Assembly: GCF_949628215.1 (NCBI RefSeq)
Contig: NC_134276.1
Span: 134,292,125-134,356,124, forward strand
Direction of reading: 5' to 3'
Source: Phalacrocorax aristotelis
Lineage: Eukaryota > Chordata > Aves > Suliformes > Phalacrocoracidae
DNA length: 64,000 nucleotides
Shown: in pieces, positions 4,268 through 50,600 of the stretch
Layout of the letters: every line of letters starts with the position of its first letter
Position numbering within the stretch: the first letter of the stretch is position 1
The notes under the pieces: generated by a model
Database searches by the model: none
What the model was told of the DNA's origin: nothing
Seen by the model: only the letters and a program-made list of their open reading frames with translations
Program-made: the position numbers and the translations under genes

Positions 4268-4709
4268 GTAGGTATTTTTGTCATATACAAGAGTTTGGTA
4301 AACTTAACAATTCAACAGTCTTAAGTGTTCCCTGTAGTACATTTTTTGTGAGGTACTCCCTGTGTTTATCCAAGAGCTGTTTAATATAGCTCTGCTTTTA
4401 CATCAAGTGTAATTAGGAAAGTTAGGATGCAGTAAGGAATGTAATTGTCACAACTGGCTGGTAGAACCAGGGAGCATGGGGAAGGGAAGCTGAATAAAGC
4501 AGTGTCGATCACAAGACAATCTCCCTATTAAAACATTCCCACTAAAAATATTTGGTCATGTTGCTATAATCTAACAATTTGGGAAAAAAAAAGGATTGCT
4601 AATGAACATAAAAGAATGGGCATCTTTCATCATCCTGATACCTATATCCATGCTCTAATAGTTAAGCTGTCATGGTAAGAATGTCATAAGATTTTTTTTT
4701 ATTTGAAAG

Positions 4710-5023
4710 GGACCTATTTTGCAAGAGATGCATCATATTCCAGTCGTTTCTGCAAAGAGGACATGAAGCATGGAGACACTTTTCAAATTCATGGTGTGAA
4801 CCTGCAGCCTCATCTGCATAGACCAGATAAAGTCATGTTTCTTGCTCGTGTATTGACTGGTGACTATATCAATGGTGATTCAAAATACATGAGGCCTCCT
4901 TCAAAAGATGGAAGTTTTGTGAACTTGTATGACAGCTGTGTGGATAATACCTGGAACCCAAAGATCTTTGTTATCTTTGATGCAAACCAAATCTACCCTG
5001 AGTACTTAATAGAATTTTGTTAA
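4710..5023 (+). CDS. TIPARP: TIPARP/PARP7-like last coding exon with stop codon
   Basis: Acceptor at ...atttgaaag, then codon G|GG and TYFARDASYSSRFC, with the Tyr of the triad in the YFARDASYS segment. Next come FLARVLTGDYINGDSKYMRPP and LYDSCVDNTWNPKIFVIF, ending NQIYPEYLIEFC and TAA at 5021-5023. The position of the polymerising Glu is hydrophobic in NQIYPEYLI, as in mono-ADP-ribosyltransferases. The ending resembles TIPARP, not PARP11 or PARP12, whose C-termini differ. It differs at several sites from the mammalian TIPARP I know, so a TIPARP paralogue is possible. No disruption is visible. Confidence 0.93.
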
Positions 5024-17896: not shown

Positions 17897-18069
17897 CACC
17901 AGCCCTGTTTATTGCGTTCCGCTCCTGACTAGCCTTCCATGGTGGAGCAGCTAGCCCTCACTGCTGTCTGACACAGAGGCAGTACTGCTGACAAGGCTGC
18001 AATGTAGGTCCAAGGTCCACCCAGAGGTGAGACGTGTAGCAAGATTACTTGAGGAAAGCAGGCTTTGGC
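17897..18069 (+). repeat. Direct repeat, copy B (first copy 14685-14870)
   Basis: Same start and end words as copy A. Here the CR1 part continues without interruption into the reverse-transcriptase region, whereas copy A jumps to the 3' end. The two therefore share one ancestral junction between an unknown 5' segment and CR1. Confidence 0.8.
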
Positions 18070-19255
18070 TTGTTGAGGGAGTCTGGTAGGCAGTATCCCA
18101 TGGGACTCGCCCTGGAGGGCAAAGGGGTCCAGGAGAGTTAGGCAGACTTCAAATACAACTTCCTCAAAGAACAGGAAGGGTTCATCTGATGTGTGGGAGG
18201 GCTACCAGGCCTGGCAGAAGGCCAGCATGGATGAACAGAGAACTCCTGACTGAATTTGACCATGCAGAGGCAGTGCACAGAAGGCCGAAGTGGGGCTGGT
18301 CTGCTCTGGAGGAATGCAGCCATTGCCCCAGTATGGTGGGGTGGCATCTGGAAAGCCCAAATCGCATCTGGAGTTGAAACTAGTGAGGAACGTGGAAGGC
18401 ACCACGAAGGCCTTCTATGAATATGTTGGCAGTAGACGGGAGCCTAAGAAAAAGTGGACAGTCTGCCAAATAGAGCAGGGGAGCTGATGACAAAGGACAT
18501 ACACAGTGCCTTCCTTGCCTTGGCATTTAATTGTGTAAGGTCTGCTTTTAGGCCTTGGATCTCTGAGCTTAGTGGCAAAATCTGGCAATGATGCGGAGTA
18601 TCACCCACAGCAGAGTAAGACTTCATTGGCAACCAAAAGGCAAGCTGGACATACACAAGTCCATGGGTCTACCTGAAATGCTTCCAAAGGTGCTGAGGGA
18701 GCTGACCAAAGTCACTGCAAAGCTGCTCTCATCTTTGAGCAGTCATAGTGAGCAGGGGAGGCGCCTGATGAGCTGAAGAGGCATATGGCACACACACCCC
18801 CCACCCTGGCCATCTCTCTGAAAGAGGCCCTAGAGAACTACAGGTTTCTCAGCCTGATCTCTGGCCCTGGGAAGATCACAGAGCAAATCCTCACAAAAAC
18901 TACTTCCAGTTGTATGAAGGACGAAAAACTGATTCGGAAAAGATAGCATAGATTTACCAAGGGCAAAGTATGCCCAACCAGTCTGATAGCTTTCTACAGT
19001 GAGACAAGTATTCACTTGAATGAGTGGAGAGCAGTGAGTGTTCACCTGAACTTAAGGTTTAACCCACAATTTCCTGTAGTCACCTTGTAGCCAGATGGTT
19101 GAGGTATGGTTTGGATAAGTGGAAGATAAGGTGGGTGAATAACTGGCTGGACTACAGGCCTTAAAGGGTTGTGATCAGCTCTTCATACTAACTGGCAGCA
19201 AGTTTACTATTTGTGTTTCTTGGGGACTGATACTGGGGCTAATACCGTTTAGCCC
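18030..19255 (+). mobile_element. Old CR1 LINE fragment (endonuclease end to mid reverse transcriptase)
   Basis: Recognisable CR1 landmarks in order: tcccatgggactcgccctgg, gtccaggagagttagg, gccagcatggatgaacag, the reverse-transcriptase lead-in near 18655-18720, and ttggggactgatactggggct near 19220 (equivalent of the RT GSVLGP motif). Many stops and frameshifts. The copy stops where the minisatellite begins, so its 3' half is missing. Confidence 0.8.
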
Positions 19256-19258
19256 TTC

Positions 19259-20870
19259 TTGTTTTTTGAAAGACCACAGGTCAAGCGATACGGTCATGCC
19301 CTGCCACAGGCTCCTTCTGCTCTCCTCTCAACCTGCCTCAAACGCCTCTGCATTGGTCTCTCTCACTCAGAGACATACTCTGCATGCTTTCAGAGGCTGT
19401 TTGAGGCTATCTGCTTTGTCTTCACTGCCCTAAGCGTATCCTGCAACAGTTGGGTTGCTCTAGTCTGTCTCCTACTTTTGTGGCCCTCCAGTTTTACTGT
19501 GTGTTCTCCTTGGAGTCTTTTAACGTCTCTGCTTCTGTCTTGGTCTCTGTGAGGTTACTCTCTGCCCTCTCAGCATTCTTTCAGTCTTCCTGTTATGTTT
19601 TTTCACCTCCCCACAGCTACTGTATGCTCTCTGGGTTTCTTTCTTGTCTACTTTTTTCCACCTTTCTGAAGCTTGTCTTTGTTATTCTTCACATTTGCAG
19701 GCTTTATGCTATCTTCTTACCTTCTCTGAGACTACTCTGTCTTCTCTGAGGTTCTTTCAGGCTCTGTTCTAGTCTCTCAGGCTCTGCAAGGCTTCTCTGT
19801 TCTCTCTCAACCTCTCCGCTTCTTCCCTAGCCTCTCCAAAGCTGCTATGGCTGCCTTTCAGGTTTTCAGTCTGTTCCTTCCTCTCACTTTGGAGCACTTT
19901 CAGTCTTTCTGCTGGTTTCCCCCCTCACACTTTTCTGAAGTTAAACTGGGTTTTCTGGGGCTGTTTCAGTCTCTCTTCAACATTTGCAGCATCTCAGCTA
20001 CTCTTCTTTCACCTGGGACTTTTTCAACCCTCCTGCTTGTTTCTTCCCTTCTCCAAGGCTATTCTCTGTTGCTCTTGTAGCCTCTCTCCTTTCTTAGCAG
20101 CTGCAGGCAGTCTCTCCTAGTGCTCTTTCAGAATCTCTCCTACCTTGTTATTGTCAAGGTCTTTGGTGTGTTCACCATGGTTCTTTCAGGCTTTCTACTG
20201 GTTTCTTTGCCTCTTTGATGCTACTCTGTCTTCTCTTTTACAGATTTTGGCTCATTTTCCCTTCTTTGATGCTATTCTTTGGGGCACTTTCAAGCTTTCT
20301 GCTTTTTTTTTTTTTTTTTTGGTCTTCACTGAGGCCACCCTTGGTATTACTAGGTATTCCTTTAATATCTCTGATACTTCCTTGTTATCGCTGAGCCTCT
20401 TTGGTATTTTCTGGGGGGTACTTTGCCCTGTCTAGTTCTTTCCTGGTCTTTTTCACTCTGCTACATTTTGTTTCCTTGGGCACTTACAGGCTTTCTTCCC
20501 TTCCTTGAGGCTACTTTATGTTCTCTGAATCTCTTTCAGACTCTCTGTTGCTTTGTTGGCTTCTGCTTGGCTCCACTATTTCATCTGGGGATCTTTCAGA
20601 CCATCTTTTACTTTCCTGGCATTTGGAGGGCTATTCTGCGATCTTTCTCTGTCTCAGTGTTTAATCAATTTTCGTGGTTTCTCTGAGATGTCTCAGCATC
20701 ATCTGGATGCCTTTCAAGCTCTCTACTACGCTGTCCTCTCTTTGACTATTCTATATTCTCTGGGACACTTGCAAACTCTTTCCTATGTTACCAGGCTCTC
20801 AAAACCAATTTGCTGTTCTCTGGGGATCTTTCACACCTATTTCTGTTTTATTAGAGTCTTGTTTTGAAGG
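19259..20870 (+). repeat. Pyrimidine-rich degenerate minisatellite, unit about 50-70 bp
   Basis: The words ctttcag/ctttcaa recur every ~50-70 bp (for example near 19895, 19963, 20124, 20185, 20285), each usually followed by gctctctgct-like and gaggctactctg/ttctctgggg-like words. Purines are rare on the + strand, so several overlapping + frames of 77-104 codons stay open. This is a composition effect and not evidence of protein. An uninterrupted T run lies near 20306-20323. Confidence 0.75.
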
Positions 20871-23800
20871 AAGATGAGAGAGGATGGTGGGGGGCGGGTC
20901 TCTTCAGGCACGCAACAGCTTCAGGAGCTCTGGACTTCAACTGCAGTGGAGTTGGAATAGATCTCTGTGAGTCACCTCTTGGAACTTTTTTGTCCCCTTT
21001 TCATTTTGGTGGTAGCTGGAGTTAGGAGAGAAATGAGCTCAAAGAGGCACCTTTTAAAAAATCCTTTATTTTTATATCATCCTAGTAAAAATCTTTTATA
21101 TAAAGGTGAAAGTAGGTATTGCATAGAAGAAACACTGATGCAAACATCACCTGGTGGGAATGGGTATGGTGTTTCTTAGTGTCTAATATCTACTGCACAA
21201 CAGATGGCTAGCCCCTAGGCAAACATCTCCAGGTTTCCCCATGCCAGCTACAGGATGAAGCTGCTCTACTCTACAGAAAGCAGTTACATCAGAATTATGT
21301 GTGCCCTATTCCATGCTGCTCCCAAGAACCATCTGCTGGGAAAACACCCTTTTCCTCTGTGCCATTTCTACGCCTGAACCAATACATTGCCCAAGAAAGG
21401 CCATGAGGATCAGTTTGGCTGCCCTTTGCTTGCACCCTTTCTGTGTGTAAGTTTGTATTTCATGCATACAAATGGGGGGTGGACACAGGATAGGAAAGTT
21501 GGCCTAACATTACCATAGTCCGGGAACACTGTGCGTGACAATTAAAAGGCATCCTCTGTCATCTGTTTTTATCATCTCACATGCTACTTAGCTATGGGCA
21601 CTTCTTTTGAGTGCCTTCCACCTGGGCTTCTTATAACTAACAGCCTTGGTACCACCAGGAGGGAACAGAATTCACTGCTATCACTTCAACAGCTTTCAAG
21701 TAGAGGTTCTTCAAGCAGTTCTATTATGTCTCTGCTTAAGTTCTGCTGCAGCTTCCAAGCATGAAGCACAGTGAGACAGCAGGTATGCTACAGACTGAAG
21801 GGACACTCAGAGAAACAGCACTTTCATACACTTAACTGTGCTTTCATGAATTAGAGATAGAGAGGTATGCATTTATTCTAATCAGTATTTGTGTATATTA
21901 AAGATACTTTTACTTAGTATCAGTTTTTATTTAAAAACATGCTAAAAACTTATACTTAAATAATCAGAGTGACATTTGGGGAAAACACACAGCCACGCAC
22001 CAGCATAAGCAAAAAAAGTGCATACATACATGAGCCAAAGCTCCTTTTGACCAGTCTACAGGAAAGTTAGTGCCTTTTCTGACAAACTGACTGATGCAGC
22101 CTCACACTTTCCAGGGTTGTTTTTTGTTGCCTGGAAAATGCCATTATTTTTCTGCTCCTTTCAGGATGCCTGTCATCACCTCCTACATCAGAAAGTCAGC
22201 TAAAGACACAAATCAGCCCTGCTTTTAACCCCCTTCCTGTAGGTGGCTTCATAGAGATGAATACATGAAGTTTGTGTAACTATGCCACTTAATACTGTGC
22301 TTAAAATGCCAAAAGTAGTCATTAAAAAAAAAAGATTTCAGGATCTATGCTGCTAGATCGTGAAATGGAATGAAGCATTCTAGAAAATAAGTTTGTCTAG
22401 AAAAATACAATGGAAGGCAAAGTAGCTGAGTTTGCAACTACACATTTGATCTTCGAATTACACATAAACATTTTTTATTTCCTTATTACTTTCACTAATA
22501 TATTTTACCCTTTTTTTTGTAAAAAAAACTGACTGCAGATTAAAATTTAAGATGTGGCAGGTACCACTGTGCGACCCAGAAGGACAGAGATGATGCTCCT
22601 GCTCAGCCCTGCACCTCACTCTTTTTCAATGCCAGAGAAAGCTAGAGAAAGCTAAGTGCCTCAGCCCAAAGGGAGAATGTAGTGGAGCCATCAGATGAAA
22701 ATCATCCTGTCTTTTCTTGCAAAAATGGGAATGCATCTTAGCAACCTTGGATACAGTCTTACATGTAGCAGCAAGTACACTGGGCATCAGAGCCCCTTCT
22801 TCAACATGGAACATCCATCTCCAGTGGCCTTAGATGCTCCTGGTCCCAATTTTTGTTAGAAATGGAAGTAAAACTGGATTCAGTTTCTGTGCTTTCCCTC
22901 TGCTTCTTCAAGGCAATCCAAGTGAAATAGCTGAACCCATATGGCATTGTCTGCTTCAGTGGGAAACAAGAGCCCTGTGAAACTTTGAGCATTGTGCTTA
23001 TATGGGCAAGGGCCATGCTCTAAGAATGGTAACCTCCTTCTTCACTGCAACACCCAAATTCATGTCCATCTCCCACACATTCACACTCCTTCCTGTCACA
23101 CTGATTTCACAAGGAACTCAAAAAAGTGACACATAGGCCACACAAACCACTACTGCTGCCAGATGTACAGATGCATGCAGGACCTACTAGGAAGATTAAC
23201 ATGGGACTAAAAACTATTGCTGCCATATGCCAGCTGTACAGATGCATGCAGGACCTACTAGGAAGATAAACAGGGGACTAAAAATTCCCAGATATGAAGT
23301 AGCTCCACAGCTATTTCAGCCCACAAAGAAAAGATAGGCTGAATGATACAATTAAAATTATATCTTTTAAGAGTTTAAAGTATAAATATTCAGAGTGGAC
23401 ATTAAGAGAAACTTGTTTACCAGAGCAGTAGTTTGACATGGTATGGCTCTGAAAGGCACAAAATCTCCATCCTCAGCAGTTTCTGAAACTCAGCCCAATA
23501 ATGTCACAGTAAACCCCTTCATATGTAGATGACAGCACCCATTTGTGAGTGACATTGGATGAGGTAACCTCTGAAGGTCACTTCTGACTGCTGCTAATAC
23601 AAAATGCAGTGTTTCTTTCAGAGCTGTGTTGAGCCCTGACTGGAGTCAAATCAGAACATCCTCCAATGCCTGAGCCTTTTCTTCTTCCTTCACAAAACAG
23701 CAAAAACCTGGAACAAAGGGTAAATGGGGGCTGCTTGCAATGAAGCAGCATTCAAACTAGAGAAGCATACGCTCAAGTTTTCTAACAGGAATGTTGGTAA

Positions 23801-30925: not shown

Positions 30926-31117
30926 ACTCAACAGGAGGCACTTGTTTTCCTTGATAGCACCTAGGCAGCCCAGAAAGCCTGTCACCATGATGACTGTGCC
31001 AATGGCAATGACTAGGTTGGCAGCTGAAAGCGACGGAAAGCTAGGAGAAAATGTGGCGAAGTTTCCTTGTGACACTGACAGCCAGATGCCCACACCCAGC
31101 AGCCCACAGCCACATAA
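30926..31117 (-). CDS. TSPAN9: TSPAN9 second coding exon, transmembrane helices 1 (end) and 2
   Basis: 64 codons in phase 0, from LCGCGLLGVGIWLSVSQGNF through the small extracellular loop and helix 2 to CLGAIKENKCLLLS. Acceptor ctctttacag, donor gtaaga. This corresponds to residues 22-85 of the 239-residue family member; with the later exons it gives 218 residues, so only the ~21-residue first coding exon is missing. TSPAN9 is a four-helix membrane scaffold of tetraspanin-enriched microdomains, known from platelets among other cells. No disruption is visible. Confidence 0.97.
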
Positions 31118-34100
31118 CTGTAAAGAGATAAACAAAAGAAAGGTTTCACCATTAAAATAAATGGCATTGTCTCCTTCCCCCACTCTGAAAGGAAAGAATT
31201 TCTCAAGTAAATTCTCAAGTAACTGTTCTTCAGTAATGCTTTCACTGGCTTGGTGCGGAAACAACGTGAAACTAATATTCTTACCTAGACTTGGTCATGT
31301 CACCTATACTTATAAATCTATTCAAAAGCCACTTTATGGCACAATTCTCTTTTTAAAGACTCAGCACATGAAACCAGGGCTACCCATTGATCTCCCAACA
31401 GCACAACCCAATAACATTTTTGCATAGGAAGATAAAAAATATTATTTGAAGGAATGCTCCATTGCACTTATTTCTGCAGTAAACTACAATGTCTCAGTGT
31501 ATCCAGCCCTGTATTTCCTCATCCTAGGGCAGGCAAGGAAGTCCTGGAGATAATTACAAACAATAGTATAATTTCAATAAATATTTGTCATAAAATGCCC
31601 AGTCCCAGTAGCCAGGTTGGGTTTTAGTATGAGTTCTCATAGCTTTACTGTTGTTTGCCAGTGTTCAATGTCACAAAAATCAGATTTCTAGGTTTACTAT
31701 CTACAAGAAGCTCAATTTCTGCTACTCTCTGTCAGTGAGAGAACCTGAAGGAAATGCAAAGCTGCTAATACAACATAAAATTAATTTCACTTTGCTTCTT
31801 ACTCTTAACAATACCATGCCTGGTTAAGGAAATAAGGTTTTCCACCCTAAGTAATGGGGCAGGTCTTCAGAACAATAGCCAACTGTTGTACTACAGAAGG
31901 CCTAAAAGCTGGCTGTCTTATAGTACTTGCTCAAAATGACTGTTATACAACTTCCCATCTGATCTGTGATCATTGTGCAGTGAAATCAGAATCAGGAGTT
32001 AGTTGCACTTTCATTAAATCTGTGAGCCAAATCTATCCTTTGCCAAGGTCAGAGATGAAATTCACATCACCTTCACTGGGAGAGGGCTCAGAGTAGCCCC
32101 CCACTTCAACTCAGAGTCCAATTTACTTGGACCACTGCATGGGAAAAACAAACAGCACCTAATCATTACTCACAGTCATATCCCAAGGCTGCTAGTGCTC
32201 ACCTACCTGACAGCAGTGAGGAATGAGAGGAACAGAAGTTCTTTGCATCAAGCAGGTTCACCACACCCAGTCCACCCCATTGTGCTTGCATAAACTTACA
32301 GCTTTTACTCAAACTGGAAACTCACGGTCAGAGAACAGTACCTCCACTAAAATAGGGTTCAATCCTGCCTTCTGATGAGCACTAATCTGGCATGAGGAAG
32401 AGCTACAGACCTAACTTTTTTGGCAAATATCCCCACCTCTGTCTGAGGTGATTTTACCAGCAGGGCAGATAACTCAGGGTACAACTGGCTTCTACTGGTT
32501 TTGCTGCTTCACAGAACATGAAAAAAAACTAGACTAGTATCTTGCATTCATGTCACCTTATGTATGAGTCAGGCTTATGTTTACATAATCATATGCATGG
32601 TTATTTTCTTTTACTTCACCTGTGGCCCTTCTGTCCCCTCTGAGCCCTCTTCCTAGTTTGCTTGAAGCTTTTGAAACTGCTTTGCATCTAGGGAAATACA
32701 GCGGTTTGGTGAAGAATTGTGACCAGGATTAGGCCTTATGTAAGATGCTCACAGGTATTCCCATGGAAGGCAGAGTAAAGCATCTCCAATGTACCAAGTC
32801 CACAAAAGCTAACATCGTGCAAAGCATAAAAATGTAGGGTTGTGTAGGCAGAGAAAGAATAAGAGATGGAGATTAGCTATATTGCATTGGTGGTTATTTT
32901 CGGGGCCCCTTGCACCTAAGTTTAGAAGCCTGGTAAAAAAACCCCACAACTGTCTAAACCTCACAAGCATGTGCAATTAGGAAATCTTCAGCATTCTTGT
33001 AAGGAGGCTGGGAAGCACCTCTACCCTTGAATTCTCCTACTCTTTCCTTGAATTGCTGCAGTTTTGGTGCCTCAAGCCCTCTCAGGAATCCACTCTGTGG
33101 CACAGCTGCTTTAACCATTAGATGAGAACTGCAGGCAGTTGCTCAGGCTTGATGGTTCAGGAGGTTAGAAGCAGCTCTCACCACACAACATTCATTTAAG
33201 GTTTTAAATGGCATTTCTAAGCTGCCAGCCTGTACATTGCCAATAGCTGAAGGCACTTCAATCAATGACTTCATGACACTCCATGGATGAGACTGTAAAC
33301 GTTTCCAAAGAAGTTTCTACCAAAGACTGATATTGTTCAGTGTAACTTTCTTTCAGAACCTCAATTCAGACTTTAAAGGTTATTCACAAATGTGTTCCTT
33401 GGACTTTCATACTCAGTTAGCCTCAGAAATCACAGCCCTAGCTCAAGTTTTTTGAAAGAGGTCAGTCAACTCTGGAATCACCAGGCCAAAAGCAGATGAT
33501 CATTGCAGATAAACAAGGTGGTGGTAAGAGCAAGAACAGGGCAAAAGGCTTACAGAGGAAGAGCAAGTAACGGACAAAAAGGATACATGCGATCAATAGA
33601 AAGATCAGCCCATGAAGAGTTGCACCTTAGTATCCAACTCCAATTATAAGGATAGTAGTAAAAGAGGTAGAAGAAAGAAGCCCTTACCAGCATCTCTTTA
33701 CCATTTGAAAAAAACGCAGCACAATCCTTGACAGATATTGCACCTACAAAAGAAAGGTGGCTAGGAAATTGCTCAAGGAGGCTCATGTTTATGTTTATTT
33801 AGACAAAGTCAGAAGCAGCTAATTGCTTAGATGAGGGAAGGGAGTGCTACCTTCAAGTGTAGGAAATCACGAAAGTGACAGGCCTGATGGTGCTCCATGT
33901 GATGGACATGAAAAGGATCAAGAGCAGGAGAATCAAAGCTGGAGAGCAGAAAAATGGACAGCCAGCCTCTGTCCCTCTGACAGGGTCTCAGTTCAAGAGA
34001 CACTCTGTATACACTTCCATACAGGAGAGAGAATTTCCTCACTTGCTTGTGGTAGCTACCATAGTATTTTGGTAAATTCAAGAGCAAAACATTTTGCTTT

Positions 34101-38305: not shown

Positions 38306-40690
38306 CACAGAATCACAGGTTGGAAGGGACCTCAGGGATCATCTAGTCCAACCTTTCTGGGAAGAGCACAGTCTAAACAAGATGGCCCAGCACCCTGTCC
38401 AGCCGAATCTTGAAGGTGTCCAACGTGGCCAAGTCAACCACTTCCCTGGGGAGATTATTCCAATGCTCGACTGTCCTCAGTGTGAAAAATTTCCCTCTGG
38501 TGTCCAATCAGAATCTCCCCAAGAGCAATTTGTGTCCGTTCCCCCTTGTCCTCTCCATGTGACTCCGTGTAAAAAGGGAGTCTCCGTCTTCTTTGTAGCT
38601 ACCCCTGAAGTACTGGTACGTGGTAATGAGATCCCCTCTGAGCCTCCTTGATTCTCAAGGCTGAACAAACCCAGTTCTCTCAGCCTATCCTCATATGGCA
38701 GGCTTCCCAATCCTTTGATAGTCTTAGTGGCCCTTCTCTGGACCCCTTCCAGCCTGTCCACATCCTTTTTGTATAGCGGGGACCAGAACTGTACACAGTA
38801 CTCCAGGTGTGGCCTGACAAGCTACTCAGCGCTTGTGGGATAATGACTTCTTTATCTCTGCTGGTGATGCCCTGTGTGATGCAAATCAGCATCCTGTTGG
38901 CCTCTTTGGCTGCATCGGCACACTGTTCGCTCATGTTCAGCTTTCTGTCCACCAGGCACTCCAGGTCCCTTTCCACAGAGCTGCTCTCCATCCCAGTGGA
39001 TCCCAGCCTGTGCTGCACTCCCGCATTATGTTTTCCCAGGTGCATGATCTTACACTTCTCCTTGTTGAACTTCATAAGGTTCTTGCTGGCCCACTCTTCC
39101 AGCCTATCCAGATCTTCCTGCAGAGCAGCTCTCCCTTCCAGGGTGTCTACTTCCCCACTCAATTTGGTGTCATCTGCAAAATTCATCAGGCTGCACTTAA
39201 TTCCATTACCCAAATCACTTATAAAGATGTTGAATAACATTGGGCCCAATATCGATCCCTGGCAGACTCCACTTGTGACAGGTTGCCACTTTGAAAAAGA
39301 GCTATTTACCACCACCTTTTGGGTGTGGCCTGTCAGCCAGTTCCCCACCCACTGCACAGACCACTTGTCTAGGCCATAACACATCAATTTCTCCAGGAGG
39401 AGACTGTGGGGGACCATATCAAAGGCCTTGGAGAAGTCCAGGTAGACAATGTCCACTGCCTGCCCCATGTCAGCCAGGCAAGTCACTTTGTCATAGAAGG
39501 CCACCAGGTTTGTCAAGCACGATCTGCCTTTAGTGAAGCCATGTTGGCTTTTCCCAATCACGTGCTTCAACTGACTTGTAATGGCCCTCAGGAGGATTCA
39601 TTCCATAACTTTCCCAGGGGTTGAAGTAAGGCTGATGGGCCTATAGTTACCCGGATCCTCCCTTGAGCCCTTCTTATAGATAGGGGTAACATTTGCCTTC
39701 CTCCAGTCCTCTGGGACATCCTCCGTTCTCCACGACTTATCGAAGATTATGGAGAGTGGCCTTGAGATGATGTCAGCCAGCTCTCTCAACACCCTCGGGT
39801 GGATGGCGTCAGGGCCCATTGATTTGTGGGGGTCAAGCTCCTGTAGTAATTCATATACTAACTCTTCCTTCACCGATGGCAGGTCGGTGTTTGGTTTAAT
39901 CGGCAATTTTGTTCCCAAAGCCTGGGACCCTACAGTGCTGGTAAAGACAGAGGTGAAGAAGGTGTTGAGGACCTCTGCCTTTTCTGCATCACTGGTGATT
40001 GATTGTCCTTTTCTGTTTAACAGTAGGCCTATGTTTTCCTTCTTTTTCTCCTTATGGTAGACATGTCTGAAGAACCCTTTCTTGTTATTTTTTATGTCTA
40101 CAGCCAGTTTCAATTCAAATTGGGCTTTTGCTTTTCTAACTCTGTCTCTGCACTCTCTGGCTATGCTGTTGTAGTTCTCGGCAGATAATCCTCCACTTCT
40201 CCATTTCTGGTGTGCTTCCCTTTTGGATTTGAGTAGACCCAGGACGTCATGGTTGAGCCATGGGGGCCTCTTGCTCCACTTACTTCCCTTTCCTTTGTAG
40301 GGGATAATTTGACTTTGTACTTCCAATAGAGAGTTCTTGAAGAATTCCCAGCTCTCACTAGCTCCTTTGTATTCCATGGAAGCTTCCCATCGAATCCCTC
40401 CCAACTGAACCCTGAGTGCACTGAAGTTTGCTCTTCTAAAATCCAGAATCCTTGTCTTAGAGCTGACCTTCAGCACACTCAGCAGGATCCCGAACTCCAC
40501 AATATTGTGGTCACTGCAGCCAAGGCTGTCACTAACCGAGATATTACAAAGCAGGCTTTCTCGGTTTGTGAATAGCAAGTCCAGCAGCGCCTCCTTCCTG
40601 GTTGGCACTTCTAACATTTGTATCAGGAAACAGTCCTCTATACATTCCAGGAACTTGGTGGATGACAAAGCAAGATCGTCTTCTAAATAT
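38306..40690 (-). mobile_element. CR1 LINE, 5'-truncated, about 2.4 kb with long ORF2 remnant
   Basis: On the - strand it runs from within the endonuclease domain (40690) through reverse transcriptase to the 3' UTR and tail (aatcacagaatcacagg at 38310). Only the endonuclease end (CSDHNIVEF) remains; the 5' UTR, ORF1 and most of the endonuclease are absent. It is the best-preserved CR1 of the window and lies opposite no coding exon. Confidence 0.95.
38680..40668 (-). pseudogene. CR1 ORF2 remnant (endonuclease C-terminus plus reverse transcriptase)
   Basis: Two long frames in the same phase, 40668-39598 and 39570-38680, are separated by a TGA at 39600-39598 in the segment ...GKVME*ILLRAI..., probably a CGA to TGA change. 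The first carries CSDHNIVEF, NYRPISLTS and GPDAIHPRVLREL. The second carries YLDFSKAFDMVPH, GSILGP and the catalytic FADDTKLSG with both aspartates present. Small indels near 38835-38850 then shift the frame, and the C-terminal end continues in another frame to about 38477. Not functional as it stands. Confidence 0.9.
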
Positions 40691-41364
40691 TGTCCAAATT
40701 AGAGTAAGGACAACAAAATCTGATAAGTTCTTCAGCCATAGACTAGAAAATGAGAATGAAGTATGGAAGTGGGTAAATATACTTAATAATACCTATTTAG
40801 TGCTACTGCCATAACAACATGGCAAAGATTTAAACTCCTCTACAACATTCCTATGAACTGGATATTGATGCAAAACAAAGGAATTATTTTGATATCTCCC
40901 TTTGAGTCTAGTGCTGTAACAGCTGTAATGAGACAGCCTGTGTGTAACAGAAGGTACAGAACTGGAATCTGTGCAAATGCTGAACCTCCTTTATTTATCT
41001 GTGAGAGACAGCAGTTATCCTCTTCCTAGAGTCCTCTCCCCAGAGTCCTCTCCCCAGCAGTACCGCTGGGATAGTCCTGAAAAACTGAAATGAGGTATCA
41101 GAGACTGATCTTTTGTGGGGCTAGCAAACAGAGAGCTACCCTGAGGAGCATTAAATTCTGAAAATTTCACCAGTCTGTGTTTTTGGAATGTGTAAATTTG
41201 CAGCCAGAATTCTTAAGCATTGGCTTGGATGCCCTCACCTGGTCACATTGGAGTCTTCAATAAAGGACCTGTTTTGCCAAAGGAAGTTTTAACAGCTGGG
41301 TTTGCTTTGTTTGTCAAGGACAGCTTAATCTCCTCTTTACTTAGCTGAGGGGCAGCTTGGGTAG

Positions 41365-41594: not shown

Positions 41595-42437
41595 TTGATC
41601 CTAATTTGTGAAAAATCCATCAACCACGCCATTTATAATGAACACAACAAATCCGTTACTTTTGGAAGCCTTAAGGGGAAAGCTCTCATGCCTATTCTGG
41701 GGAATCAGTACACTTGGGTATCTCTCTCCAATGCCTGTACACCAGTGCATGCAAGGCAGGGAACAAACAGGAGGAACTGTACGTCTAAGTGCAGTTACAG
41801 GGTTGTGGCATCACTGCAATCACAGAGGTAGCAGGATAACTCACATACTGGAGTGTTGTGATGGACGGGTACAGGCTCCTTAGGAAGATTAGGAAGACAA
41901 GGAGGGGATGTTGCACCTTGTATGAGAGAACAGTGGAAATGCATACAGCTCTGCCCTGGGATGGGTGAGGAGCCAGTCAAGAGTTGAGAGTCATATTAGT
42001 AGGCAGACCAATCTGTTGCAGTACGTGATGTTGTAGTAGGAATATGCTATAAACCTCCAGAATTAGACAAGGCCTTCTTCATACAACTGGAAGAAGCTTC
42101 ATGCTCACAGGCCCTGGTCCTCATGAAGGATTTCAACCACCACAATGTTTTCTGGAAGGGCAACAAAGCAGGGCACAAGCAATCTGAGATTTCTGGAATG
42201 CACTGATAACAATTTCCTGACACAGGCGATTGAGGAATCAACAAGAATAGGAGCTCTGTTGGCCCTGCTGCTTACAGACAAGGAAGAACTGGTTGGGGAT
42301 GTGAAAATCAGGGACAGCCTTGACTGTAGTGACCATGAGGTACTAGAATTCAGGATCCCATGAGGAGGGAGCAGGGCAAAATGCAGGACCACAATCCTGG
42401 AATTCAGGAGAGCAGGTTTTAATCTCTCAGAGATCTG
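41595..42437 (+). mobile_element. CR1 LINE, left half (endonuclease region), interrupted by the Polinton-type element
   Basis: CR1 endonuclease landmarks in order: gggtacaggctcc near 41868, gccctggtcctcatgaagg near 42110, and a frame at 42199-42363 with FLECTDNNFLTQAIEE and CSDHEVLEF. It ends ggaattcaggagagcagg ... agagatctg at 42437. The CR1 resumes at 48556 with aatctgcttggaagactccc. Left and right halves join into one + strand LINE of about 2.9 kb. Confidence 0.88.
42432..42437 (+). repeat. Left target-site duplication of the Polinton-type element (GATCTG)
   Basis: Six bases directly before the AGTAGTAC terminus. The other copy (AATCTG) follows the right terminus at 48556-48561, with one mismatch. 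The undisturbed CR1 reads gggatctgcttgg here, so one GATCTG belongs to the target. Polintons are known to make 6-bp duplications. Confidence 0.85.
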
Positions 42438-42760
42438 AGTAGTACTGTTTTCAGTGATAGGCAAGATAAGAAGTGACAAGTGCCCCCCCGCCCAGCTTCT
42501 GGCAGGAGTCCCACCCCCCTACCAGCAGCTTCAGGGTCCACTTGCCCCAGACATCACTCCCCTCTTTTGGTCATGTTTTGCCAATTGGCTGGCAGGACTG
42601 GCCACCCTGACAGCTTTACTCAGAAGTACATCAGTCCTGGACAGCCCTTACGCATATATACGCAGGGAAAGTTATTTTGGTTTGGCCACCATTTTCACAG
42701 GGCACCACCAGTTTATGACAGGGAGCCGCTATTTTGTTAAATGTCACTGCTCTAATATTG
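42438..42760 (+). repeat. Left terminal inverted repeat of the Polinton-type element
   Basis: Starts AGTAGTACTG. It aligns, with indels, to the reverse complement of 48231-48555. Clear shared words include cttgccccaga, ctcccctctt, attggctggcagga, attttggtttggccaccatt and, near the inner edge, gacagggagccgctattttg. The outer ~40 bp align more loosely. Confidence 0.88.
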
Positions 42761-42859
42761 GCTGATGGCCTTTTCTTGACACCATCATCGCCATGTGTTC
42801 TCGGGCAAACCCTGTAATTGGGTGCCTTCTTCATCTGCACCAGGAAGCCCTCAGATACA

Positions 42860-43080
42860 AAAATGTATACATCTATGTACAATATATACATGCATATGCA
42901 ACATACAAAAATACATATACATATATTCTTTATATAATATTTAAAAGTAATATGTATATATACATATATATTAATATCTAAAGGAGTGTGCAAATATGTA
43001 TAAATCTATATTTTATCTATTTTATGTATAATACTTCTATATATGTATATATATTTTATCAAATATATATAGCCATAGAA
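42860..43080. repeat. AT-rich (ATATAC)-type microsatellite inside the Polinton-type element
   Basis: Long run of ata/tac/tat words (for example atatgtatatatacatatat) on both strands, locally self-complementary. It lies just inside the left TIR; the right TIR has no counterpart. It keeps a 120-codon - strand frame open by composition only. Confidence 0.8.
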
Positions 43081-43499
43081 ACAGGTATAAAATGGATAAA
43101 ACATTTTTAATAAGAGTTAATGGAATGAATAATTACAGTTTAAATATGAACAAAAGTAAAAGGCTGGGGTCCCTTTAGCAGACTGCAGAACAAGCCCTGA
43201 TATGTCTGAGATGGACTTCAAGAAGGTGGAGGGGTGCCAAAAGGATGATGAGCATAGACAAGTTGAAACATGCCCGAGGGTTATCAGACCCCTCCTAGGA
43301 GGCCACTAAGGGGCCCCCAGCACACAGCCTGTTGTGTGCAAAGAGAAGACAGGCAAAGAGGGACTGAGAGGCCCCTGCATCTTCCCACAAAACACGAGCT
43401 TGAACTTTAGTTCAAGTTTAGTTCGACATGGCAGAATAATTTGCAGAAAGGCTATTATCTGTCCTTCTCCATGATGATGGAACATATGAACCACCTCAT

Positions 43500-43959
43500 T
43501 AACCCCCAAAACAAAGCTTCAGCTGTCGACTCTCCAGCAGTGAGCCTGGTCTGTGACTATCATAAGGAAAACAAAGCTCAAAATTGATGAAAAGCCCTGC
43601 ATTTTTTCTACAACTGAGATCTGGCACATATTTTGGGGGCTTCTCCAGGAGTTGCTGCTAAGAAATTTCCTTTTATGGCTGACATTACGGGAGAGTTTAA
43701 CTCGCTCTACCTCCACACAGATCTTGTAGAGCACCAGCTCGTCAGGGACTTTGCAGCTCCTTTATTGCTCTGTGTTCCAACTGGCGGTAATAAGATGATT
43801 GAGACAGTGATGTATGATAAGCCACACTACATGCCTGTAAACCATCAGCGTGCAATCAGCATTGAAATAAAGACTGACCAGATTAAGCATGTCTCATTTT
43901 GCTTTGGGAAGGTGATGGTGAGCCTGCCTCTTCAGTCCCAGAAGGCTCTGACATTTTAA
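43500..43959 (+). pseudogene. Polinton-type minor capsid (penton-like, PY) protein, C-terminal remnant
   Basis: An open frame from about 43620 to TAA at 43957-43959 shows the C-terminal signature of the single-jelly-roll minor capsid protein: LAHILG with PGVA, then NSLYLHTDLVEHQLV, APLLLCVP, PHYMPV and a final GKVMVSLPL. In the family this protein forms the icosahedral vertices. An in-frame TGA lies just upstream of the LAHILG codons, and more stops interrupt 43500-43615. The N-terminal half, expected to be a few hundred codons, is not recognisable. The next gene starts about 50 bp downstream, consistent with a capsid gene cluster. Confidence 0.8.
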
Positions 43960-44011
43960 GAAACCATGCCAAAATGGTAGTTGTGAAAAATTACAGGGAC
44001 CCATCTTGTAC

Positions 44012-44269
44012 ATGAATTATTACAGAGCTCAGGCTGGCAATGGTCTTCCTGTTTTCAAGGCATTCCTGTTGAGTATGGTGCAGGTGTTGGAAGTATATTC
44101 CATAGCCTGTTTAGAAGGGCTTTTGCAAAGGAGTTCAGACATCGATAAGCCCCATGTTAAAAGTGCTGCTGAAGATACTGCAAAAAATGTGTTTGGACAT
44201 GTTTGCAAGGTTGTCATGGGCAAGTTGGAAACTCCTTCAAATCAGGAGGGCTTGGACTTGCTTATATAA
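44012..44269 (+). CDS. Polinton-type small virion protein (PW-like), open but probably relic
   Basis: ATG at 44012 opens an 85-codon frame to a stop at 44267-44269, with no disruption. It begins MNYYRAQAGNGLPVFKA, matching the YY-x-x-QAG-x-G start of the small Polinton protein placed between minor and major capsid genes. The weaker SAAEDTAKNVFG segment matches the family's middle. It resembles adenovirus core-associated small proteins in position and size; function in Polintons is not proven. Surrounding genes are broken, so intactness may be chance for a short frame. Confidence 0.65.
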   Translation: MNYYRAQAGNGLPVFKAFLLSMVQVLEVYSIACLEGLLQRSSDIDKPHVKSAAEDTAKNVFGHVCKVVMGKLETPSNQEGLDLLI

Positions 44270-44481
44270 AGAGAAAAACCTTTAAAAGACACAAAGCCGT
44301 GTCATGTCCCCAGAGGGAAGATCGACCCCAGCCTTTTAAAAGAAAAAGGAAGGGGTGCTAGGCAACAATCTGACCAGGAGAAGACAAAGAACAACCCAGG
44401 CTGAATGGTGCAAAAGAAACAGAAAACCCAGAGGAAGACATCCTGATCTACTGCTAGAAAAGGAAATCTATCTTAAAATGA

Positions 44482-45800
44482 ATGGCTTTCATTCATGGTT
44501 GCCAAAGAATGTACCAAATCCAAGCTGGATTTGTCTGAAGTGTCCCAAACACAGACCAGCATTGAGAAAAGTCTGTTTATTGAGGTGCCTCCGCTTCTCA
44601 CTATTGTGGAGTCTGCAATTCTGGACTTTTTCATAGCTGGGAATGAGGAAGATTACATAGATCTGAAGAACATCCTACTGTATCTTTGCTGCAAGACTGT
44701 AAAAGCTGATAGGTTCAGCCTCAGAGCTGGTGAGACCATGGTTCTCGTGAATAACCCACTGGCCTCTATTTTCAGCCAGCTGGACATTACACCAGGGATC
44801 AACTGATAACCCAGAGCAACAACTGCTACGCCTACTGTGCTTTCATTGAGTTGCTTCTCAATTACAGCTGATTTACTGTCCAAGCACTTCTCCACGGGGC
44901 TGTTCTGCAAAGACACAGCCAGGCAGAACCAAGCAGTCAGCCTGCATGACATCAATAATCAGGGGTTCAGGCAATGCTCAGCTCTGATGGCCCAGAGTAT
45001 GAACTATTGGGACCCCTCCACAGTGATCTGTTCTTTCAAGAAAAACTTTTGATGAATGGTGAGGATGTAAAAATTAAGCTGACATGCAGCAAAGACAGCT
45101 TTTGTTTGACGAAATCCCTGGCAGCAGGATTCTGCAAGCTGGTTATTACGTGTGCCTCGCTGTTTGTGAAGAAGGTGCAGGTAGCACCCAGAGCACATTT
45201 GGTGCATGCCGAGGCCAACACTAAATAGCCAGTGGACCGGGTGTGTTGTCATGTGTTTGTCATGTATGCATGAAAGTGTTCAGCACAATGGCCAGCAATC
45301 GTGCCAGCAACGAGGGAAGTTTGTTTCTAAGACAGCTTCCCAAGCTTGTTAGTGGCTTCATTATCTAATGATGCTTTTAGAAGCAATTATGCTAAGAACC
45401 CTTTCACCTTTAAACTTTATGATAAATTTTGTGCCCCTGTATGTGGGTGGTGAACAAATGCCAGTGAAACCACTGCAGCCTGATTTTGAGAACAGCTGCT
45501 GTGTGAGAGAATACATGCAGCTTGTTCACATGATCGGCAGCCATATGAAAGACCATTCCATACTGGTTGACAGGAAAGAGTTCGCCTATGGCTATACACT
45601 GTTTGCCTTTGACCTGTCTCCAGACCAAAGTTGTGCTGAGCACTATTCCCTGATTAAAACAGGAAACCTGACAGCAGAAATACACTTTATAGGGCCTTGA
45701 TCACAACCATTAATATGATTGTGTACAGTATATTTGACAATGTGATAGAAATAAGCCAGCAGAAATATGTGCTTTTCAACTATGTGCAAAGATGGACATT
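44482..45800 (+). pseudogene. Polinton-type major capsid protein (double jelly roll), disrupted
   Basis: Conserved pieces appear in the correct order over ~1.3 kb but in different frames: KSKLDLSEVSQTQTSIEK and EEDYIDLKNILLYL (44495-44806), AFIELLLNY (near 44850), GPLHSDLFF and LMNGEDVKIKL (near 45010-45090), VAPRAHLVHAEA (near 45200), then PLQPDFENSC, EFAYGYTLFAFDLSPDQ and LIKTGNLTAEIHF (45440-45690). This is the family often labelled F54H12.2-like in animal genomes and recognised as the Polinton hexon-like capsid. Stops after 44803, near 44870 and near 45225 and 45355, and at least three frameshifts, abolish it. The likely start is the ATG at 44482, with a frameshift soon after. Confidence 0.88.
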
Positions 45801-46649
45801 GAGCAGCTCTCTTGGGTTTTTTCCCCCCACAATTCGCTACAACACAGAAACATTTATAGGCATTTACCCTCATTAATGGCTCCCTAGAGCCCATGTTGCA
45901 CTAAGACCAGCAAGCGTGCTTGTAGATATGCCTCCATAAAAGTATGGGAAGCAATGGCTAGCAATTCTCCTGGCAGACCAGAACCATGTAGAATTTTTTT
46001 TACTTGCATGGGTATCCTCCAAACAGTGCTCTTTTTCCTGAAATCATCATGTTCTTTTTAAAACACAACACTAGAGATACTGCTTCCCAGAGGAAGCCAC
46101 TGCAGCAGCCCCTCTCTATGGCCTGCAGATACCACTGTGTTGTTTTCTGACATCACTGTAACAAGAGATTACCTTCTGAACAGCTTTTAAAACTGTATTC
46201 TAGCAATCTAATACAAAATAGCAAGATGGTGATGTGCTTTGTAAAATATGAATATGCAGCTTTCCCCATGACCAGAGCTACTCCAAATATTTTTCAGAAG
46301 ATAGATCTGCATTTCTTGTAATGATTTTCATAAATATATTCTGTAAATCAAACTTACAACCCAACCACAAGGCTATGTGTGTTCTTGAACTGCACCCCAA
46401 CATGTTTTTTAAATGGATGCTATAGACAGCAAAGGCTAAAGATTTTCTGAATATTTTATTTTCAACAGTAAGCTTAACAGGGTGAATCACTGGACTTCAG
46501 GTATCTTTCTCTTCTTAAGTCATGTGCATCTTGCTTATTGGTCCTCCTCAGTCACTTTTAATTGGTCCAAAAGATCCCAGTTTGCTGTATGACCCATGAC
46601 AGAAGATGGGACATTCCACCAGAGTCATGGATTCATGAAAACATTCCAG
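45801..46649. other. Polinton-type interior without recognised gene
   Basis: Lies between the converging capsid and ATPase-side genes. Short frames only. An adenain-type protease gene might be expected near here in a complete element, but I cannot recognise its His/Cys motifs. Confidence 0.5.
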
Positions 46650-47154
46650 GTGTTCTTCAGGCTAGAAGGTGCACAAGTCTGAAGGATGCATCAAATTCAA
46701 GAACGCTCAATCTGTTGATGACATCTCCTTTCTATATAAAAATTCCCTGGTTGTCCCAAGAAGAAATATTGCTTGTGTTGCCCTAGTTTACCTAGGAGCG
46801 CATATACGTTCTTTTAATACAGTGGATGCACATTATCCAGTGCTTCCTGAACAACAGGGTTGGGGTCCTCAGGGGATTTTCCACTTCTGCCTTATTTTCT
46901 TCCAGAAAACCAAGAGTCATTTTCCCACTCTCCTGATTGCTCTGGTTCACATGTGCCAGGTACTTGTGAAGAGCTGCCCTACAAACCTTAGCTTTCTTGT
47001 AGGCTGCCAAGCCTTGTTTCTGGAAAATGTCCCTCATTTCAGCATCCAAAGAGTGGACTTTATCAGTCCTCATGTTTTCCTGGGGCAATGGTGGCAGCCT
47101 TAGCTGCTTCAGCTGATCTGCAGGCACCAGATATATTTTTCCCATACATTCCAT
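46650..47154 (-). pseudogene. Conserved Polinton-type protein of unknown function, frameshifted near its end
   Basis: On the - strand an ATG at 47154 (or 47145, preferred) opens a frame to 46792. It begins MGKIYLVPADQLKQL, followed by LDAEMRDIF, YKKAKVCRAAL and KYLAHVNQ. The KIYLVP-x-x-QL start and AEM-RDI / Y-KAK / RYL pattern recur in a protein found beside Polinton capsid genes. After 46792 the frame closes, and the family's C-terminal part seems to continue in another frame to about 46650. Function not established; a virion role is suggested only by neighbourhood. Confidence 0.65.
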
Positions 47155-47274
47155 CACTGCTTTGCCAAAAGCCCCATACGAGCAGAAGAACAGAACTTAG
47201 AAGAGGATCTATAAAGCTGCCGGTTTGCTTTGCCAGTAGTTTCTTTCTTTTGAAGGACAAACTTTTAACTTTTA

Positions 47275-47475
47275 CTACTCAGCTTTTAATGATTTGCAGC
47301 CCTTCTTCAGCACACATATTTTGTGGGATGTTAATGGAGTGTCCCCCTTCAAGGTACTCAGGGCAGTTTCAGAAATGGCCTTTATCAGGCCATCAGAAGC
47401 TGCACTGAGTACTGCTTTTCTCTGCCAGGGGAGGTGGGGATGTATCAACAGTGCCAGGAGGGACAGATTACTTTT
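47275..47475 (-). pseudogene. Small basic Polinton-type protein
   Basis: The - strand frame ending at 47275 contains QRKAVLSAASDGLIKAISE then TALSTLKGDTPLT and a lysine-rich end. This pattern (RKALL-x-x-AS, IKA-SE-ALN-LKG--PLT) belongs to a short protein regularly found next to Polinton capsid genes. It lies between the ATPase and the conserved protein on the same strand. The upstream part of the frame, to 47523, shows no family match and the true start is unclear. Confidence 0.6.
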
Positions 47476-47591
47476 CAGACACTGGAACGTCACGTTCCCA
47501 AGCCTGCACCAATAGCAACACATGGCAACAGTCTAATTCTTCTCTATTTATTGCCAAACACCAGTCTTCCTCCCCATCCCCAATATGTAAA

Positions 47592-48200
47592 TCACAGCCG
47601 TTCTAGTGGGAAAAGACCAGTTCCTAGCATAAAAGCCTCTGGCTTAGAAGCATTTAAATCAACAACCAGGAACCCATATGGTGCCTATGTGTGCCTTTGT
47701 AGCATCTTCAAACACCTCTAAAAAGAACAGGGCCTTGCCAGGACACATCTGCTTAGGTAGGAACGCAACCTTGAGCTTAACTTAGGGATTCTTAAATAGC
47801 ACCATAGATTGTCTTTTGAGAGTGATGGTGTGGCTCTTTTTACCCTGGCAAAAAATGTGCTGGACAATGTACAGGATGCTAACATTCCTGTGATGCACAT
47901 ATTTAGTAAAAGCTTTCTCATTTCTTTTGCTCTCACAAGCAGAGTTCATCAAATCATCAATCACAACCATATTTACTTCATTAGGGGGAAATAAGTGGTT
48001 ATCACTAGGACTTTTTCAGGTATGTCTTCCACAAATTTGATAAAAGGATAGTTAGAGAGCAGTTCCTGATACAGAAGTTGCCAACAACTATAATACCATA
48101 CAATATTCTCAGTCAAAAGAGACAGCAAATAGCTGGCATTCTTTGAAAGGCTTTTACGAAATAACTTTTCCCATAATTTCTAGGCCCTGCCAGAATGGCT
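47592..48200 (-). pseudogene. Polinton-type DNA-packaging ATPase (FtsK/HerA superfamily), frameshifted
   Basis: On the - strand a Walker A loop AGPRNYGKS is encoded at about 48160-48190. Walker B VVIDDLMN lies near 47955-47970, followed by a YVHHRNVSILYIVQHIF segment and LFKNP, then KVAFLPKQM, FLEVFEDATK and PYGFLVVDL, and TGA at 47594-47592. The GxxxxGKS and hydrophobic-DD motifs are intact, but at least two frameshifts and a stop separate the pieces. The family pumps DNA into the preformed capsid. About 190-200 codons are recognisable; the start would fall within ~30 bp of the inner edge of the right TIR. Confidence 0.82.
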
Positions 48201-48230
48201 GCAAGTCAATCACAGAGCAGTATGATGTTT

Positions 48231-48555
48231 AACAAAGTAGCAGCTCCCTGCCATAAAATGGTGTCACCCTGTTATAAAATGGTGGCCAAACCAAAATGGT
48301 AGCCCCTGTGTGTATATGGGGGAGGGCCTTCTGGGTCAGATATACCTCCAGGTAAACCAGTAGGGTGTGGCTGGTCCTGCCAGCCAATCACAACAGACCA
48401 CATGACTAGAAGAGGGGAGCGACTTCTGGGGCAAATGGCCCCTGAGGCTTCTGGGAGGGGGGTGGGGGGGTGGGGGGGGCATCACACCGCACATGTCACG
48501 TGTCACATGTCACATGTCAGCTCTTGTGCTGGATATCAGTGGTACCTGTACTACC
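48231..48555 (-). repeat. Right terminal inverted repeat of the Polinton-type element
   Basis: Reverse complement of the left TIR, ending gtactacc at 48555 (one base off the perfect complement of AGTAGTAC). It contains a poly-G stretch at 48457-48479 and a short repeat of cacatgt/gtcac words at 48491-48520, both longer than the matching C-rich part of the left TIR. Confidence 0.88.
48457..48479 (+). repeat. G-rich tract with G-quadruplex potential
   Basis: Runs of six to eight G separated by single T (ggtggggggg, tggggggggc). It lies within the right TIR; the left TIR has a shorter C-rich version near 42483 and 42511. Confidence 0.8.
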
Positions 48556-50600
48556 AATCTGCTTGGAAGACTCCCATGGGATACAGCCCTGGAGAGAAGA
48601 GGAGGCAAAAAAACCTGTTGATATTCAAGAATCACCTTCTCCATAATCCAGAATGGTCCATCCTGACAAGTAGGGAACTGAGCAAAGGCAGCAGGAGGTA
48701 TGCATGGATGAACAAGGAACTCCTGACAAAACTAAAACATAAAAAGGAAGTGTACAAGAAGTAGAAGCAGGGGACATGAGTCAGAAGGAATATAGAGACA
48801 GTCCAGTCATGCAGGAATGAGGTTAGAAAAGCAAAAGCCCATCTAGCATTGAATCTAGCAAGAGATGTGAAGGGCAACAAGAAAAGATTCTACAATTACA
48901 TAAGCAGCAAAAGGGAGCCTAGGGAAAATACAGACTCATTGCTAGAAAATGTGACAGGGCACTGGTGAGAAAGAGCACTGAAAAGGCCAAGGTACTTGAT
49001 GCCTTCTTTGCCTCAGTCTTTCTTTGTACAACGAGGCCCCTGTGGCCAGAGAGAAAGTCTTGAGAAGGATCAGGCTATGGAGCACTTAAACAAACCAGAC
49101 ATTCATACATCCATAGGGCCTGAGAGGATGTACCCAGGCGTGCTGAGTGAGACAGCTGATGTAATCGCAAGGTCACTTTTGACTACTTTTGAAATGTCAT
49201 GGCAATTCGGAGAGGCTACTGTAGGAAAACAAATGTCACTCCTATCTTCAAGAAGGAAGTTCTAGGGAACCACACACCAGTCAACCTCACCTCAATCCCT
49301 GGGAAAGTGATGGAGCAACTAAACCTGGAAACCATTTCCAAACACATGAAGGACAAGAAGGTGACTGGAAGTAGTCCCCATGGCTTTACAAACGGGAAAT
49401 TATGCCTAAGGAACCTGACAGCCTTCTACAAAGAGGTGACTAGCTTGGTGGGTGAGGGGAGAACACTGATGTTGTTTAACTCAACTTTAGAAGGCTTTTG
49501 ACACCCTCTCCCAGAATATCCTCATTGACAAGCTGGCAAAGTATGGATTAGATAAGTGGACAGTGAGGTGGACTGAAAACTGGCTGAACAGCCAGGTCCA
49601 GAGGGTTGTGATCGGTGGCACAAAGTCCAGTTGGAGACTAGTCATTACTGATGTACTCCAGGGTCAATACTGGGGCCAGTGCTGCTTAACCTCTTCATTA
49701 ATGATGTGGATGATGGGACAGAGTATACCCTCAGCAAGTTTGCAGATAAACTAGGAGTGGCTAGTACACCAGATGGCAGAGTCACTATTCATCGAGACCT
49801 GGACTGGTTGAAGAATTGGGCAGAGGGGAAACTGATGAAGTTCAGCAAAGTGGAATGCAAAGTCCTGCACCTGGGGAGGAATAACCTTGTGTATCAGGAC
49901 ACACTGGGGGCTGACAGGCTGGAAAGCAGCTGTACAGTGCAGGGCCTGGAGTTCTGGTGGACAAAAAGCTGACCACAAGCCAGCAATACAGCCTCAAAGC
50001 AAAGAAGGCCAACTGCATCCAGGGCTGCATTAGGAAGAGTGTTTCTGGCATCCTTTCCCCCTACTCAGCACTGGTGAGGCCACAACTAGAGTGCTCTGTC
50101 CAGTTCTGAGTTCCCCAGTACAAGACAGACATGGGTGAATATGAATAAGGGAATGGAGCATCTTTCATACGACAAGAGGCTTAGAGAGCTGGGACTGTTT
50201 ATCCTCAAGAAGAGAAGGCTCAGAGGGATCTTATTGATCTGTATATAGAGCTGAGGAAAGGCACTGAAGAGGAGGAAGTCAGACTCTTCTCAGAAGTGCC
50301 TAGTGACAGGACAAGAGGCAATGGGTACAAATTGAAACACAAATTCTATGCAAGAAAAGCTGCCTTTGTTTTTTGTGTTTTTTGTGTTTGTTTGGTTTTT
50401 TTTAACCTTTGAGGGTGGTCACACACTAGAGTAGTGTCCCCAGAGAGGTTGTGGAGTCTCTATCTGTGGAAATATTCAAAACCTGACTAGACACTGTCCA
50501 GGGTAACCTCTTCTGGCTGACCCTGCTTGAGCAGGGTGGGCTGGACTAGATGATCTCAACAGGTCCCTTCCTACCACACCTGTTCAGTGATTCTATTAAG
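48556..50600 (+). mobile_element. CR1 LINE, right half (reverse transcriptase to 3' end)
   Basis: Continues the CR1 broken at 42437: gcttggaagactcccatggg, catggatgaacaaggaactc, then reverse-transcriptase frames at 49199-49501, 49563-49754 and 49679-49972. It ends ggctggactagatgatctc and gtgattctatt near 50600. The catalytic FADD is altered to FADK and the frame is broken several times, so this copy is older than the one at 38.3-40.7 kb. Confidence 0.93.

Follow-up and report, generated by a model that had tools for sequence, protein, structure and literature searches.

What lies between positions 42438 and 48555 of the 64-kb stretch of DNA analysed here (the window), where a long interspersed nuclear element (LINE) of the CR1 family is interrupted by 6,118 bp of other sequence, and how did that insert come to be so short? 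It is very probably a Polinton/Maverick that inserted into a germ-line CR1 of a bird and is now a dead fossil. The grounds for this are that inverted repeats far above chance, the end motif, a 6-bp target duplication and an empty site readable in CR1 agree, that the remnants with capsid-like and ATPase-like homologues are on opposite, convergent strands in keeping with the published two-module order, and that open frames of at least 100 amino acids are more numerous in the interior than in shuffled sequence. A first-pass annotation, made from the letters of the window, had already seen a Polinton/Maverick here, and that reading is borne out in part: the element is of Polinton/Maverick type, with both ends and a near-perfect target duplication, in a bird-type host.

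Ends, target site and recipient LINE

The element is bounded at both ends, and it and its recipient are delimited as follows.

42003..42437 (+): recipient CR1 LINE, left part (endonuclease); 42003-42203 by Pfam, 42190-42437 by blastn
42432..42437 (no strand): left copy of the target duplication, GATCTG, a 5/6 match to the right copy
42438..42763 (+): left terminal inverted repeat, starting AGTAGTAC; inner end 42753-42773 depending on scoring scheme
48204..48555 (-): right terminal inverted repeat, ending GTACTACC; inner end 48194-48214 depending on scoring scheme
48556..48561 (no strand): right copy of the target duplication, AATCTG, adjoining the right repeat
48562..49021 (+): recipient CR1 LINE, right part, by blastn

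Gapped local alignment of one end against the other gave a score of 198, and a chance origin of the repeats is rejected since the maximum was 32 in 300 shuffles and 58 among 500 random pairs drawn from the same window. A repeat finder returned three long inverted arms in the correct register. The repeats share 80.8% identity over 317 aligned sites (34 transitions and 27 transversions), a Kimura two-parameter (K2P) divergence of 0.225 with a standard error of 0.031. Their outer ends are 42438 and 48555, and here the first-pass annotation, which had claimed both inverted termini, was right to the base. The inner ends, under three scoring schemes, fall at 42753/48214, 42763/48204 or 42773/48194, and the resulting lengths of about 326 bp (left) and 352 bp (right) are within the published Polinton/Maverick range of 46-1,447 bp. 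The right repeat holds a (CACATGT)n tandem at 48490-48519 with a G-run nearby; since the left repeat is shorter at that place, a later local expansion on the right is suggested.

The tips, AGTAGTAC on the left and GTACTACC on the right, are complementary at 7 of 8 positions. Vertebrate Mavericks are described as having the end motif (AGT)2//(ACT)2 together with a 6-bp duplication (PMC8097293). Here the motif reads AGTAGT on the left and ACTACC on the right, the latter with one mismatch, and the anticipated 6-bp duplication is indeed present at both flanks, GATCTG at 42432-42437 and AATCTG at 48556-48561, but equal at only five of its six positions.

What did the element enter? Its flanks rejoin as one CR1 LINE, so that a second CR1 within the window shows what the empty site looked like. 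Fused at a single copy of the duplication, the flanks match the CR1 at 40653-39943 (minus strand) with no gap where they meet, scoring 173 bits as against 85 and 94 bits for the flanks taken singly. A further CR1, at 18049-18495, gives 123 bits with the joined flanks and 116 with the right flank alone, covering only 33 bases of the left flank, with small gaps. The left flank at 42003-42203 matches Pfam Exo_endo_phos_2 at E 0.0022, below the curated cut-off. This is a single insertion into a CR1, between two copies of a 6-bp target, and its outcome, a duplication and complete tips, shows integration into such a target. An integrase-type reaction would have put the element into the CR1, leaving the 6-bp duplication and complete (AGT)2-type ends; as both ends are complete, that reaction must have run to its end. 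To judge from the family (PMC8097293), the element would have been copied by protein priming at its (AGT)2 tips and enclosed in a capsid. The CR1 piece at 18049-18495 (plus strand) is only about 63% like the recipient CR1, and the CR1 copies of the window seem to belong to different old families.

Gene remnants and their order

Intact vertebrate Mavericks carry two modules that converge on the centre, one with PolB, ATPase, PM and PZ and the other with integrase, minor capsid, PW, major capsid and protease (PMC8097293). Set against that order, the interior reads as follows.

42767..43617 (no strand): 0.85 kb at the expected place of integrase, no gene assigned; AT-rich at about 42850-43115
43618..43956 (+): open piece at the minor capsid (penton) place, so placed by gene order only
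43952..44358 (+): open pieces at the PW place, so placed by gene order only
44477..45135 (+): probably the 5' half of the major capsid gene, over several frames, by position beside the matched part; outside the cover of the homologues
45136..45786 (+): remnant like the major capsid gene, split among several frames, with turtle 'F54H12.2-like' homologues
45787..46794 (no strand): central 1 kb at the expected place of protease, no gene assigned, by gene order
46795..47196 (-): 134-amino acid open piece at the PZ place, so placed by gene order only
47278..47532 (-): open piece at the PM place, so placed by gene order only
47721..48190 (-): ATPase-like remnant spread across three frames (P-loop 48187-48164, Walker-B-like piece 47785-48015), with one homologue

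On the plus strand there is an open frame of 115 amino acids at 45353-45697, for which all five candidates of suitable length match by BLASTP (best E 1.1e-36, 74% identity). Four of the five are turtle proteins, and the fifth has no name. Three of the turtle four are called 'uncharacterized protein F54H12.2-like', a name that we take to denote the Polinton major capsid protein. With tblastn the turtle fragments align to 45136-45786 across several frames, with stops, at 45-72% identity per piece.

On the minus strand a 77-amino acid open piece at 47785-48015 matches its single candidate, an unnamed protein of 103 amino acids, at 59% identity and E 4.8e-17. It contains the Walker-B-like VVIDDLM, and upstream of it, in another frame, is the P-loop GPRNYGKS (48187-48164); the P-loop pattern has four matches, this one included, among the 127,996 residues of the six-frame translation of the window. 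The two motifs are thus in the right order in different frames, and on its sequence the piece would look like a packaging ATPase, though no curated family model names it (Pfam and PDB searches). Both remnants with homologues, one gene per module, are in their published positions, on opposite strands and pointing to the centre; they would be what is left of the capsid and packaging ATPase genes. Six Polinton-type gene remnants had been claimed at the outset, and two of them, the capsid-like and the ATPase-like, now have homologues, while the other four are placed by order and orientation only. For those four, at the minor capsid, PW, PZ and PM places, no fitting family appeared in Pfam or PHROGs, these being searches of family libraries only and not of a protein database, and the pieces at the minor capsid place (43618-43956) and the PZ place (46795-47196) had no matches among viral contigs.

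The interior as a whole (42767-48203) has nine stop-to-stop frames of at least 100 amino acids, compared with a mean of 1.9 and a maximum of 6 in 200 shuffles, and with one to seven in eleven other stretches of the window. An AT-rich, low-complexity stretch at 42850-43115 lies inside the element beside the left repeat.

Several points weigh against a Polinton identity. The right tip carries its one mismatch and the target duplication is imperfect by one base. The longest interior frame, at 145 amino acids, is not unusual, with 20 of the 200 shuffles reaching that length. The capsid-like homologues are short fragments, as is the ATPase-like one, and the turtle fragments match no Pfam model. A literature search for 'F54H12.2-like' together with 'capsid' returned no paper, and structure prediction for a turtle fragment, from a six-row alignment that included the window piece, had a mean predicted local distance difference test (pLDDT) score of 29.3 and no usable fold. 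PDB searches gave nothing relevant, and for a double jelly-roll capsid in the capsid-like piece there was nothing from PDB, Pfam or structure prediction. Nor does any curated library name a piece as Polinton: profile scans were run with Pfam on 10 pieces and then on 123 stop-to-stop pieces of at least 33 amino acids, and with PHROGs and NCBIfam. On the 123 pieces, 26 families came up in Pfam at E <=0.5 (25 of them listed, best E 0.0048, none of these fitting; ISL3 transposase, at E 0.046, is a chance row), six in PHROGs (best E 0.0086) and two in NCBIfam (best E 0.027), again none fitting. The assignment of the gene regions to Polinton families by profile search, which the first-pass annotation had proposed as a check, was not obtained from Pfam, PHROGs or NCBIfam. 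Scans of viral contigs, for which the queries were four pieces of the window, a homologue and two alignments, gave no confirmed relative, and phage records gave no relative.

Missing genes and the timing of their loss

Neither PolB nor integrase is among the 25 of 26 Pfam families listed for the 123 pieces, in a scan with little power for decayed sequence. How much should be read into this? As a control for sensitivity, one of four pieces of the CR1 flanks matched a fitting Pfam model (E 0.0022, below the cut-off), and because only one in four did so the missing matches alone are weak evidence. Lack of room beside the ATPase is a stronger argument for loss of PolB. Depending on the scoring scheme, only 7-27 bp separate the start of the P-loop from the right repeat, and since it adjoins the repeat within 30 bp there is no room for PolB, which is gone from its place. 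For integrase, a remnant within 42767-43617 may be present. The adenovirus-like protease is likewise not among the 25 of 26 Pfam families listed, and the 1 kb at its place has no assigned gene.

With PolB missing from its place and no integrase found, the element is an internally deleted Maverick. Intact vertebrate Mavericks measure 12.7-24.6 kb, with a mean of 16,862 bp and a minimum of 12,723 bp (PMC8097293), and 6,118 bp is below a full length of about 15-20 kb. The earlier description of a nearly complete-ended element holds as regards its ends, both of which are present, but the element is far from complete: it is 6.1 kb long where the published mean is 16.9 kb, PolB is missing from its place and no integrase was found. 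PolB and integrase would once have lain between the two remnants with homologues and the repeats, and some 10 kb would have been lost.

Was this before or after integration? The later date is the likelier, ordinary decay having presumably removed PolB and integrase once the element was in place. If the repeats were identical at integration, and if substitution is assumed to run at 1.2 to 3.3e-9 per site per year, the insertion is centrally 34-94 million years old, or 25-119 million years with sampling error, so that the divergence between the repeats points to an age in the tens of millions of years.

The chief alternative is that PolB and integrase were already gone at integration and that a full-length relative copied and inserted in trans a non-autonomous Maverick, a satellite with capsid and packaging genes. 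This is a tentative possibility, less probable than loss in situ. It has in its favour that the right-hand loss runs from the repeat nearly straight to the ATPase, whose P-loop is only 7-27 bp inside, and that both ends are complete. However, this is a single copy, no further copy of the repeats or interior is found elsewhere in the 64-kb window, and deletion over tens of millions of years yields the same picture; also, the left-hand place of integrase is without an assigned gene, and a clean loss there is not demonstrated. Decay after integration is accordingly the reading retained here. If the satellite alternative were true, Mavericks without PolB might form an entire class in birds, one missed by screens that depend on integrase and PolB.

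Host, known relatives and surroundings

The host is probably a bird, on the evidence of its CR1s. A long CR1 remnant at 38477-40698 (minus strand) has two adjoining frames of 366 and 305 amino acids, of which the shorter encodes a reverse transcriptase (Pfam E 3e-27), with stork and ibis copies closest at 75-76%. With 39601-40698 there were 363 homologues at E <=1e-60, and the best 120 comprise 99 from birds, 4 from turtles and 17 without an organism name, no crocodilian being named among them. Wood stork and plumbeous ibis head these 120 at 75-76%, followed by a godwit at 66% and a crane at 63%, with turtles at 51-55%. Most other bird rows of the 120 are near 50%, like those of turtles, and one crane species fills many of them, so that the weight for the host rests on the best rows. 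These bear out the earlier description of the genome as bird-like. CR1 tail motifs, with two and four matches, were no help in placing the host.

Might the host instead be a crocodilian or turtle, in which case the element would belong with the better-known reptile Mavericks? Turtle proteins make up four of the five capsid-like matches, Repbase has names interpretable as alligator and crocodile Polintons (PMC9004415), and CR1 type does not fully sort the hosts, as crocodilian-like CR1s occur in ratites too (PMC8665684). Even so a reptile host is improbable, as the top four rows of the best 120 are birds at 63-76% and turtles reach 51-55%. A turtle host in particular is rejected on these bird-type best rows and on the lack of a match in the window to a turtle short interspersed nuclear element (SINE) core in the form used as query. 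Another DNA transposon or an integrated virus with inverted repeats, not a Polinton at all, is very improbable, for though no curated family names any piece and the usual markers PolB and integrase were not found, the end motif, 6-bp duplication, strand order and both homologues agree with vertebrate Mavericks.

As a bird-borne Polinton/Maverick the element is not without company. Mavericks have been reported from many bird groups (PMC8097293), and Polinton remnants from chicken and turkey (PMC4992247). The avian Mavericks of Barreat and Katzourakis 2021 (PMC8097293) are likewise degraded, with the (AGT)2 motif, 6-bp duplication and convergent modules; they came from a survey of 533 vertebrates that took only regions with integrase and PolB matches 4-40 kb apart. 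The present element, with PolB missing and integrase not found, is outside that screen because both were required. The chicken and turkey remnants of Guizard et al. 2016 (PMC4992247) similarly have broken Polinton genes, including a capsid-like frame, but are described by their integrase, capsid and PolB frames, with neither repeats nor a target duplication in the passages covered, whereas repeats and duplication are the clear parts here. The Maverick of the box turtle Terrapene carolina (PMC8097293, PMC9683012), from the nearest host group of the protein matches, has the expected gene order and is intact, in contrast to the broken 6.1 kb at this locus. Polintons that lost the major capsid protein (MCP), protease and ATPase together were described by Krupovic et al. 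2014 (PMC4028283); they share partial gene loss with the present element and are its mirror image, since capsid-like and ATPase-like genes are what it kept, with PolB gone and integrase not found. No PolB-less bird Maverick was noticed in the titles, abstract openings and passages covered, most subscription journals falling outside that scope, nor was a published count of bounded bird copies, against which the first-pass remark that such copies are scarce could be set. Bird Mavericks are already known, then, and what is new is a copy bounded at both ends without PolB, the usual search marker. With ends exact to the base, the insertion can be dated from its repeats as well as from which related birds carry it, and it becomes testable whether the last Mavericks of birds relied for their movement on enzymes of their own. 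The element also exposes a gap in searching, since screens for integrase plus PolB exclude such elements by design.

As to the neighbourhood, an exon at about 30926-31138 (minus strand) encodes a tetraspanin (Pfam PF00335, E 1.1e-13), presumably TSPAN9, and if that identity holds the element is probably in an intron, 5' of this exon. Another, at 4679-5020 (plus strand), carries the last part of the catalytic domain of a PARP (Pfam PF00644, E 9.8e-16), which we assume to be PARP11. Between these, the plus strand at 19300-22000 is pyrimidine-rich, with long overlapping open frames and a weak 10-bp periodicity (0.328 against an expected 0.27), and is perhaps an old decayed minisatellite.

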